From NCBI GenBank assembly GCA_905233455.1, contig CAJOES010000001.1:1-51928 (forward strand): a stretch of 51,928 nt of DNA, in the 5' to 3' direction. Shown piece by piece: positions 16,119-19,447 of the stretch. A program made the translations under genes and the position numbers. Position 1 is the stretch's first letter. Each line of letters begins with the position of its first letter. This DNA is from an uncultured Synergistales bacterium (GTDB lineage Bacteria; Synergistota; Synergistia; Synergistales; Aminobacteriaceae). The notes beneath the pieces were generated by a model, which worked only from the letters and a program-made list of their open reading frames with translations, was not told where the DNA came from and made no database searches.

Positions 16119-18092
16119 ATGCCTCAAATTACAGTGCCTGAAGGAAAAATATTAGACAAGATTGACGGAACTTTACGCAATGACACACCTGAAGAATACG
16201 TCCGCCAGACCATAGAACGCCGTTTGCTTGACGAGCTGAGATACACCGCCGGACGCATCTCCGTAGAGTACGGGCTCAAGATCGGCATTCAGCGGCCAAG
16301 AGCAGACCTCATCATATGGGACGACGGAGCAAAACACTCACAGGACACCGCAAAGATCATCATAGAGTGCAAGAAGTCATCAATACCGGCAGACAGCGCA
16401 AAAGACGGGATCGAACAGCTTAAATCCTACATGACAGCCTGCCCGAACTGCGAATGGGGAATGTGGACTAACAGCCTTCAAAAATTCGTGTTCAAGAAAG
16501 AGCAAAATTCAGCCTGCGAAATTGAATTTGTAGAATACAACGACATACCCACTGCCGACGGAAAAATTATTGAACGCCCAAAACGCTCGGAACTCGTAAA
16601 CGCTTCTGATGATAACCTCTTGTTCGTGTTCAGGACGTGCCACAATCACATTTACGCAAATGACGGACTTCACAAACAGCAGGCCTTTTTTGAGTTCCTC
16701 AAGATAATATTCTGCAAGATTCAGGACGAACGCAGCCTGCCTACAACGCCCATAGAATTTTACGCAACATCAAAAGAGCGCAGAAACCCGGACGGACAGC
16801 TTACCGTGAAGAAACGTATAGCATCAATCTTCGGGAACGTCAAAAAATCCTACGGCACAATATTTGACCCGAAAGACGAAATCACATTAACGCCCAGAAG
16901 CCTCGCATATGTCGTGAGCGAACTGCAGCGTTACAACCTGCTCAACACAAACATAGACATCAAAGGCAAAGCATATGAGGAGATCGTAGGCTCAAATTTA
17001 CGCGGGGACAGGGGAGAGTTCTTCACACCGCGCAACATCATGAAGATGACCGTAGAAATGATAAATCCCGGCATCAATGAAAGAGTCCTAGACAGCTCAT
17101 GCGGGACGGGCGGCTTTCTCGTCATGGCATTAACCCACATGATAGACACCTTACAGCGCGAATTCGAGCACGGCTTCGGACTGCCCAAATCACAATGGAG
17201 CACAGATCAGGCACGGGCTTTTGACGACAAGAAAAAGGAACTTGCTGCGAGCCAGTATTACGGCTTTGACCTCAACCCCGATTTAGTGAAAGCCACAAAA
17301 ATGAATATGGTCATGAACAACGACGGAAGCGGAAACATCATGCAGGCAAATTCACTCCTGCCCCCGCACATGTGGCCGGACGATTTCCGCGCAAAACTCG
17401 CCGCATCTCTGGGGATTGACGCATCTGAACTCCGCAGCCATGACACGATAGCATTATTTGACGTTATCGTTACGAATCCCCCCTTCGGAAGCAAGATACC
17501 CATCAAGGACGATTACATATTGAAACAGTTTGAACTTGCACGCATATGGAAGCGCGACAAAAATTCGGGCGAATGGGTCATGACCGAAAAATTACAGTCT
17601 TCAGTGCCGCCGGAGATTCTTTTCATCGAACGCTGTACCCAGTTCCTGAAGGAAGGCGGAAGAATGGGGATAATTCTCCCGGATTCTATTCTTGGTTCGC
17701 CGGGACTAGGCTATATACGGCAGTGGATACTGATCAACCACAGGATAGCAGCAAGCCTTGACCTTACGCCGGACACCTTCCAGCCCCATAACGGCACGCA
17801 GACATCAATACTCCTGCTGGAGAAGAAGACGGAACGCGAGAAGACCGGAGAGGCTATCACGCACCATATAGCGAATTACCCCGTGTTTATGGCAAAAGTT
17901 GACAGGGTAGGGCATGACAGGCGGGGCAACCTGTTATACAAGCGGGACGAGGCAGGGAACGAGATAACTGAAGGCAAAGAGAAAATCATAGACGACCAGA
18001 CACAGGAATTACCTGCAGTGTTTGAGGAATGGGCTGAAAAAAAAACGGCTTATTTCTGGGCGAAACACCGTACTGTTCAGTACGGCATATAA
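16119..18092 (+). CDS. Restriction-modification fusion: HsdR_N-type nuclease plus N6-adenine methyltransferase
   Basis: A 657-residue protein. Residues 40-130 match the HsdR N-terminal nuclease domain with a PD-(D/E)XK-type site (D63 in RADLIIW; E83 and K85 in IIECKK). Residues 270-610 match the HsdM class of adenine methyltransferases: RGDRGEFFTP (295-304), SAM motif DSSCGTGGF (325-333) and catalytic NPPF (453-456). It would both cut and methylate DNA, guided by the specificity protein encoded next. No HsdR-type translocase is present. At 18037-18045 the frame crosses nine A and ends after a short tail unlike the family; a -1 shift there would join it to the specificity frame as one protein of about 1109 residues. 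Confidence 0.88.
   Translation: MPQITVPEGKILDKIDGTLRNDTPEEYVRQTIERRLLDELRYTAGRISVEYGLKIGIQRPRADLIIWDDGAKHSQDTAKIIIECKKSSIPADSAKDGIEQLKSYMTACPNCEWGMWTNSLQKFVFKKEQNSACEIEFVEYNDIPTADGKIIERPKRSELVNASDDNLLFVFRTCHNHIYANDGLHKQQAFFEFLKIIFCKIQDERSLPTTPIEFYATSKERRNPDGQLTVKKRIASIFGNVKKSYGTIFDPKDEITLTPRSLAYVVSELQRYNLLNTNIDIKGKAYEEIVGSNLRGDRGEFFTPRNIMKMTVEMINPGINERVLDSSCGTGGFLVMALTHMIDTLQREFEHGFGLPKSQWSTDQARAFDDKKKELAASQYYGFDLNPDLVKATKMNMVMNNDGSGNIMQANSLLPPHMWPDDFRAKLAASLGIDASELRSHDTIALFDVIVTNPPFGSKIPIKDDYILKQFELARIWKRDKNSGEWVMTEKLQSSVPPEILFIERCTQFLKEGGRMGIILPDSILGSPGLGYIRQWILINHRIAASLDLTPDTFQPHNGTQTSILLLEKKTEREKTGEAITHHIANYPVFMAKVDRVGHDRRGNLLYKRDEAGNEITEGKEKIIDDQTQELPAVFEEWAEKKTAYFWAKHRTVQYGI
18037..18045 (+). 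repeat. A9 homopolymer at the methyltransferase/specificity junction
   Basis: Nine A in a row. The -1 frame is closed by TGA at 18035-18037 and opens exactly here, running on as the specificity protein. A tract of ten (or seven) A would fuse both frames. It is a candidate slippage site (DNA, RNA polymerase or ribosome, A AAA AAA). Confidence 0.7.
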
Positions 18093-18115
18093 GCGAGGTA
18101 TTATCGGACCCGGAT

Positions 18116-19447
18116 TTGCGGCTTGAAGCCGGCGTGTTTGACCGTGAGGCAGGGAGAGCCGCTGAAAGTGTAGAGCAGGGGAAATTCGGTGCGGTGAAGT
18201 TCGGAGATATTGCGGTGTCGTATATGTTCGGGCGTTCGGTGAAGCTCATGCGGACAAAATCACCGTATCCTTTCTTTCAGCCTTCAAGCGTTACCGACAT
18301 CAAACCCAAAACAGACGGCTATTTATATTCGCGCAAACAATCAGAGATTGACGAACTTATGATACACAAAGGCCAAGTGTTATTATCCCGTTCTGGTGCT
18401 ATAGGGCGGGCAGTCTATGTGTCTGATACTCTCGACGGAAAATACTTAAGTCCTGACATGCTGCGAATTGACACCAATAACCCTGAAGACACGGGATATG
18501 TTTATGCGTACCTGAAAAGTTCAGCGGGACAGAAAATTTTGCAGTCTCTTGCATTCGGGGCGGTTATTCTTCACATAAACCCTGAACATCTGAATGATAT
18601 ACCCGTTCCCTATCCTCCCGAAGAAATACGCAGGAAGATTCATGAACTCGTCGTGAAGTCGTATGCCCTGCGTGATGAGTCTAATATCCTGCTCGATGAG
18701 GCCGAGTCCCTGCTGGTGCGTGAGCTTGGCCTGCCTCCGGTTGACGGCATGAAGGCCCGGGAAGGTGCAGAGTCCTTTGAGGTCAGCAGCTCGGAACTGT
18801 GCGGAAGGTTTGAGGCATCGTATCATTCTCCGCTGTTCGGCAGGATAGAAGGGATATTGCGTAGGAATGCAGGAGAAGTTATCACTGTGGGAAGTGAGAG
18901 AGTCAGCCGGAAAATAATATTGCCTGGAATATTCAAACGCGTTTATGTCGGCGAGGGTTACGGCGTTCCGTTCTTAGGGGGAAAGCAAATCGGAGAATTA
19001 GACCCTTATGACAAAAAATATTTGTCGTTCTTAAAGCATGATAAATTGATACGCGAGGTGCTAACTATACGCGAAAATATGATACTAGTAACATGTATTG
19101 GGACTGTCGGTAAAGCGGTTCTCGTTCCTAAATACTGGGACGGCTGGGCTGTAAGTCAGAATATTATGCGTGTAGTTCCTGTATCAGATGACATTGCGGG
19201 CTATATATATGTGTGGCTTGCGTCTGAATGGGGTCGTGAACTCGTAAGGCGGTATTCTTGCGGTGGTGTAGTAGAGGAGGTTAGAGACGAACATATGAGG
19301 CAGGTCCCGTTTCCGCTGTTGCGTGATGAGGGGGCACAGAAACGGATAAACAGCCTTGCTCTTGAGGCCAATGCAAAGAGGACAGAGGCATATATGCTTG
19401 AGCGTGAGGCACTTGGGATAATGGAGAAGGAAATAATACAAAAATAA
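18116..19447 (+). CDS. Type I-like DNA specificity subunit (HsdS family), start uncertain
   Basis: From the TTG at 18116 this frame gives 443 residues with two target-recognition halves, each followed by a helical spacer (the first near RRKIHELVVKSYALRDESN, residues 170-188; the last at the C-terminus). Such proteins choose the DNA site for methylation. The frame is open back to 18038, and those upstream codons read like genuine specificity-protein sequence (ISEVLSDPDLRLEAG). There is no ATG, and no ribosome site at proper distance before the TTG. It may therefore be the C-terminal part of a fusion made by frameshifting at the A9 tract. Confidence 0.8.
   Translation: MRLEAGVFDREAGRAAESVEQGKFGAVKFGDIAVSYMFGRSVKLMRTKSPYPFFQPSSVTDIKPKTDGYLYSRKQSEIDELMIHKGQVLLSRSGAIGRAVYVSDTLDGKYLSPDMLRIDTNNPEDTGYVYAYLKSSAGQKILQSLAFGAVILHINPEHLNDIPVPYPPEEIRRKIHELVVKSYALRDESNILLDEAESLLVRELGLPPVDGMKAREGAESFEVSSSELCGRFEASYHSPLFGRIEGILRRNAGEVITVGSERVSRKIILPGIFKRVYVGEGYGVPFLGGKQIGELDPYDKKYLSFLKHDKLIREVLTIRENMILVTCIGTVGKAVLVPKYWDGWAVSQNIMRVVPVSDDIAGYIYVWLASEWGRELVRRYSCGGVVEEVRDEHMRQVPFPLLRDEGAQKRINSLALEANAKRTEAYMLEREALGIMEKEIIQK

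Follow-up and report, generated by a model that had tools for sequence, protein, structure and literature searches.

The window, by which we mean the whole stretch of 51,928 nucleotides analysed, belongs to the draft genome of an uncultured Synergistales bacterium and carries a restriction-modification locus whose two parts meet at a run of nine adenines. All of its features lie on the forward strand. The upstream part (RM) is an open reading frame of 657 aa at 16119..18092, which joins an N-terminal PD-(D/E)xK nuclease domain to an N6-adenine methyltransferase. Pfam places an HSDR_N_2 nuclease-like domain at residues 24-144 (16188..16550) and an N6_Mtase domain at residues 279-575 (16953..17843), the latter with PDB sequence and fold matches to the BsaXI RM protein and to type I M subunits. 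The nuclease signature RAD..IECK..Q-x3-Y and the methyltransferase motifs CGTGGF and NPPF are invariant across 13 relatives. The downstream part (S) is a specificity reading frame of 469 open codons at 18038..19447, in which Pfam recognises Methylase_S, the type I specificity domain. With aroD and a dapA-like gene as its neighbours, the system stands on its own, and it forms one transcription unit of type IIB-like RM+S composition. Two related loci (L003 and L004) lie between liv genes and a dapA-like gene. No helicase domain was found in the protein and no hsdR adjoins the locus; this genome does carry two hsdR genes on other contigs (L199, L200), which indicates that classic type I systems are also present.

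Direct reading of the window places the A9 run at 18037..18045. The RM frame ends 47 bases past the run at the stop codon 18090-18092, its C-terminus reading ..EEWAEKK followed by the out-of-frame tail TAYFWAKHRTVQYGI (18046..18092 with the stop). The resulting RM-alone protein has native subunit length, the RM subunits of two-gene relatives being mostly 654-673 aa. The S frame is blocked by a TGA at 18035-18037 and opens inside the run without a good start of its own. Its first ATG, GTG, or TTG is a TTG at 18116..18118, with no Shine-Dalgarno sequence at a usable distance, and the stretch CSVRHISEVLSDPD (18074..18115), which comparison with orthologues identifies as the conserved N-terminus of S, lies 5′ of this codon. 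One extra base in the run would yield a single frame of 3330 bases coding for 1109 aa. In all these points the sequence agrees with the preliminary description, from the position of the run and the two frames to the lack of a good S start and the arithmetic of the fusion.

The run follows a conserved Trp codon (W638, 18030..18032) with which the last RM helix ends. Among the relatives compared (A2 alignment and Selenomonadaceae), the equivalent of W638, which is Phe in L056, is followed either by an A-run or by the S start of a two-gene locus. A Shine-Dalgarno-like GAGGA (18024..18028) lies 9 nt 5′ of the A_AAA_AAA heptamer and is not kept in the clade. Just before the RM stop, the inverted repeat CCGTACTG-TT-CAGTACGG (18068..18085) is perfect over 8 bp with a 2-base centre. 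Its z of -0.62 against shuffled sequences is not significant and it is absent from the orthologues; being found in the window only and 23 nt from the run, it was rejected as a frameshift stimulator. The possibility of a chance homopolymer was ruled out by the rarity of such runs and by conservation in the relatives described below. Indeed, no other A-run in the 52 kb window exceeds 7, where 0.3 runs of nine or more would be expected. The 2.49 Mb draft genome holds 8 exact A9/T9 runs and 6 that are longer, almost all of them, on inspection, intergenic or terminator-like. Other long runs within plausible genes of this genome occur in a transporter C-terminus (L146), a signal-peptide region (L150), and an OadG-like gene (L154). 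The last of these, an A10 in an ORF reading ..GSGAEKKNDV.. (G000:C17:6882-6893), is a further coding A-run that might slip.

Several observations bear on what the enzyme is. A PDB sequence search with the RM frame gave RM.BsaXI, a type IIB enzyme, as the top match; the same search with S gave no match. The predicted structure of a fused orthologue, L060 (mean pLDDT 84), shows in order a nuclease, a methyltransferase, a first target recognition domain (TRD1), a long helix (828-863), TRD2, and a second long helix (1061-1097). In a fold search with this model, the BsaXI RM chains were the best matches and the BsaXI S chain was also among them. The lysines encoded by the run (639-641) sit where the last RM helix (628-639) ends and in the linker that follows. 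Two features of type IIB enzymes are thus seen, namely, nuclease and N6-adenine methyltransferase in one chain and an S part with two TRDs and helical spacers. Single ORFs joining RM and S, as in single-chain type IIG/IIB enzymes, are found in nine orthologues and not in the window. We regard the enzyme as a type IIB-like RM part with a two-domain S part, perhaps of (RM)2S make-up. The preliminary description had compared the size of the fused protein with that of one-chain type IIG enzymes; a split gene need not be a broken type IIG gene, as the closest relatives with solved structures belong to the type IIB RM+S enzymes such as BsaXI, whose subunits are separate. The best curated NCBIfam models were MAD2 for RM (619.5 of 720 bits) and MAD5 for S (305 of 400 bits), but assignment to the MADS defence system was rejected, with both scores below their cut-offs and no further mad genes beside the locus.

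Well over a hundred related loci were collected, and a tree was built on 91 RM proteins. In this tree, all 12 loci whose junction carries an A-run fall together (SH-aLRT 95, one change) in a clade that has a Synergistaceae branch (the window, L001-L005, and L104) and a Selenomonadaceae branch (L056, L059, L060, L064, and L066). Of the 79 two-gene relatives, 76 have overlapping S start and RM stop codons (typically W-ATGGTAA), 69 have a Shine-Dalgarno sequence, usually AGGAGG, before the S start, and an A-run of 9 or more is absent from the junction region of all 79. In all 12 members of the A-run clade the overlapping S start signal is gone and an A9 or A10 directly follows the last RM helix. 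The comparison therefore points to a clade that spans two bacterial phyla, is nested among two-gene relatives, and has a single origin: as the two-gene form surrounds the clade in the tree, which was midpoint-rooted with the root not formally inferred, the most likely course is that loss of the S start gave rise to the A-run form a single time. The relatives also bear out that the RM gene and its S partner belong together, and the one-chain size predicted in the preliminary description recurs in the nine orthologues that are single ORFs of about 1100 residues. That description had further reasoned that homologues always made of two genes with an efficient S start would speak against its proposal; this arrangement was found in the outer relatives but not in the window's own clade. 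The viral contigs examined held two-gene relatives only, and a plasmid search gave no close match. A distant RM-S family, about 32% identical, occurs in the same genus mostly as single ORFs of about 1140 aa lacking an A-run (L089-L103); two of its members (L087, L088) are split.

Within the clade the run is kept in place despite large divergence, and the frame is not. The run is A9 in the window, L001, L004, L005, L059, L060, and L064, and A10 in L002, L003, L104, L056, and L066. Relative to RM, S is in frame in 9 of the 12 (including L005, which is cut by a contig end), at -1 in the window and L001, and at +1 in L002. Conservation of the protein would not be expected to hold the run so constant: among 13 other invariant lysine columns of the gene, none is AAA in all 12 members, and only 6 of 116 invariant twofold-degenerate columns keep a single codon, counts that are not corrected for relatedness. 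Judged by this codon comparison, the run is selected as DNA or RNA, beyond its coding for Lys-Lys. The flanks, in contrast to the run, are free to change, including by indels of non-multiples of three, as seen in TGGGCTG-A9-CGGCTT of the window versus TGGCTG-A9-CGGCTT of the fused L005. The earlier suggestion that the window has one A too few therefore holds in so far as run length sets the frame, but non-triplet indels in the flanks set it too. Between the near fused relatives L060 and L066, the step between A9 and A10 is a C-to-A substitution bordering the run, with no indel and the frame kept. Finally, both shifted frames stop within 11 codons in 8 of the 9 fused members, which would give RM of native length; the signal for such rapid stops is clear over the nine fused members (p 0.001) and weak with one member per sub-lineage (p 0.08).

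The S part appears to be in use where it is split from RM. Between the window and L001, both with A9 and both at -1, S has a pN/pS of 0.34 at a dS of about 1.9, which is saturating, and this value is similar to the 0.21-0.40 of fused pairs. On the strength of this similarity we read S as constrained, and as expressed, in these split members. The 24 codons 5′ of the window's first start codon have a coding-like pN/pS of 0.48, although over a short stretch, and the proposal that S-like sequence already precedes the first TTG was borne out by its conservation. In L001 (L001:7953-9344), the S frame has an ATG 7 codons past the A-run that overlaps the RM stop (ATATGGAACAGGTAA); this locus may have returned to two-gene expression through that ATG, with S translated separately. 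In L002, a second frame break lies in S at an A7 (L002:8530-8560) and returns the 3′ half of S to the frame of RM, and the locus may be decaying or misassembled.

We propose that the A-run is a programmed slippery junction that acts at the RNA level and gives both RM alone and an RM-S fusion, a reading to which we assign a probability of roughly one half. According to this proposal, the S start signal was lost in the clade, and an A9 or A10, read as Lys-Lys(-Lys), took its place where the last RM helix ends. Slippage on the run, mainly by RNA polymerase and less by the ribosome, would let either genomic frame produce some RM ending just past the run alongside some RM-S fusion. For the window, the unslipped message would give RM alone and the slipped one (one added A, or a -1 ribosomal shift) RM-S; in the fused relatives the reverse would apply, with RM-S from the unslipped message and RM alone from the slipped one. 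The two products could then supply the ratio of two RM to one S used by enzymes of such build. This would fit BsaXI, an (RM)2S enzyme (PMC11997821), and the behaviour of an engineered EcoKI M-S fusion, which requires extra free M in vitro (PMC3510504). In Thermus dnaX, transcriptional slippage on an A9 yields 50% short product, and conservation of the A9 in homologues was taken as a sign of programmed slippage (PMC1088944); here, a run of A9 or longer is found in 12 of 12 clade members.

Slippage of some kind is indicated by a run that stays fixed while the frame varies, and the slippage mechanism suggested in the preliminary description now appears likely. The fuller picture, in which programmed transcriptional slippage sets the subunit ratio for an (RM)(RM-S) assembly and the S start was replaced once by a run that is kept across two phyla whatever the frame, is one we put forward tentatively, at somewhat less than even odds. 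Against slippage for the sake of stoichiometry stands the second RM-S family in the same genus, which is fused without an A-run, so free RM would not be a general need. The ATG of L001, from which S might be translated separately, and the lack of conserved structure downstream of the run also count against the proposal.

The main alternative is phase variation, in which replication slippage changes the run length heritably and only the fused RM-S is active; the window would then be OFF and would turn ON with one more A or two fewer. We consider this possible, although less likely. The run is a coding-region homopolymer whose length decides the frame, orthologues stand in frames 0, -1, and +1 at the same run, and the non-triplet flanking indels, which decide the frame as well, look as if the run could compensate for them. 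Moreover, BcgI-like type IIB S genes and type IIG genes of H. pylori vary at homopolymers (PMC3936762). However, only lengths 9 and 10 were seen, with one genome per species, and 9 of the 12 members are in frame. Close fused members preserve the frame by substitution rather than by indel, the window and L001 share their out-of-frame state by descent, and the run lies exactly at the RM/S boundary, where an OFF state still leaves a complete RM subunit. The constant length, the frame-keeping substitutions, the shared state of the window and L001, and the exact boundary lead us to favour RNA-level slippage. Nevertheless, the variety of genomic frames fits both mechanisms, which sequence data cannot separate and which may coexist; an A9 is also mutable at replication, so some heritable switching is expected. 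The confidences we give overlap accordingly, as the two readings are not exclusive.

Programmed -1 ribosomal frameshifting on A_AAA_AAA, which would yield the fusion as in E. coli dnaX, could contribute in the window only; there, GAGGA lies upstream and, as in L001, S is at -1 with the heptamer in the codon phase needed. As the mechanism of the family it was rejected and we think it unlikely, since S is at -1 in two members, at +1 in L002, and in frame in the nine fused relatives, upstream and downstream stimulators are not conserved, and no conserved downstream structure was found. It is also possible to regard S as a second gene read from a weak start (TTG 18116 or CTG 18056) and coupled to the RM stop at 18090, as coupled starts of two separate genes prevail among the outer relatives and the sister L001 has an ATG overlapping the RM stop 7 codons past the run. 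We judge this very unlikely and rejected a separate start in the window: there is no Shine-Dalgarno sequence, a start at TTG 18116 would cut off CSVRHISEVLSDPD, the fused orthologues need no start, and the retention of the run in all 12 members would be left unexplained. Least probable of all, in our estimate, is a sequencing or assembly error hiding a true A10, or a decaying pseudogene with a dead S. The genome is a 166-contig draft and L002 has its second frame break at an A7 in S, but independent assemblies show the run at the same place, the sister L001 has the same frame relation, S is open for 469 codons with a pN/pS of 0.34, and the frame differences lie partly outside the run. The assembly error raised in the preliminary description thus finds little favour.

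What appears to be new here, on the comparison of sequences, is a type IIB-like RM+S enzyme with a conserved, putatively slippery A-run in place of the S start. If slippage does make both RM and RM-S, this would be, in the literature searched, the first known restriction-modification system whose stoichiometry is set by transcriptional slippage, and a natural counterpart of the engineered EcoKI M-S fusion. A split annotation in draft genomes would then not need to mean an inactive enzyme, and swapping the run for AAGAAGAAG in a fused form should change activity or complex composition. If the run is instead a replication switch, it would represent a further case of phase-variable restriction among gut Synergistaceae and Selenomonadaceae; a limited search of the literature on phase variation and restriction-modification in Synergistetes turned up no report of this kind.

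The system is most readily compared with BsaXI/BcgI-like type IIB enzymes, with which it shares a nuclease-N6 methyltransferase fusion and an S part with two TRDs. In BsaXI, however, RM and S are separate subunits (PMC11997821), whereas in the window the S start is gone and an A9 links the frames; identity is about 20%. MAD2 and MAD5 of MADS (NCBIfam NF047738, NF047740) are the best-scoring curated families for the two halves. The BcgI-like H. pylori loci HP1471/HP1472 and JHP1364/JHP1365 (PMC3936762) resemble it in having RM and S, a homopolymer that breaks S, and an S without a start codon after the RM stop, but their homopolymer is a strain-variable poly-G of 13-14 within S and not a conserved A9 or A10 at the RM/S boundary. 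In the H. pylori type IIG genes HP1353-1354/JHP1272, homopolymer frameshifts likewise alter a one-chain restriction enzyme, although there a poly-C gives ON/OFF and specificity switching and is not a site of RM/S stoichiometry. The engineered EcoKI fusion (Roberts et al. 2012, PMC3510504) joined M and S by removal of the frame break and needs free M in vitro; unlike the window clade, it is man-made, has a separate HsdR, and lacks a slippery run. Finally, Thermus thermophilus dnaX shares with the window an A9 within a gene, nearby stops in the shifted frames, and long and short forms; it encodes a DNA polymerase subunit and its slippage is experimental, whereas for the window we infer it.
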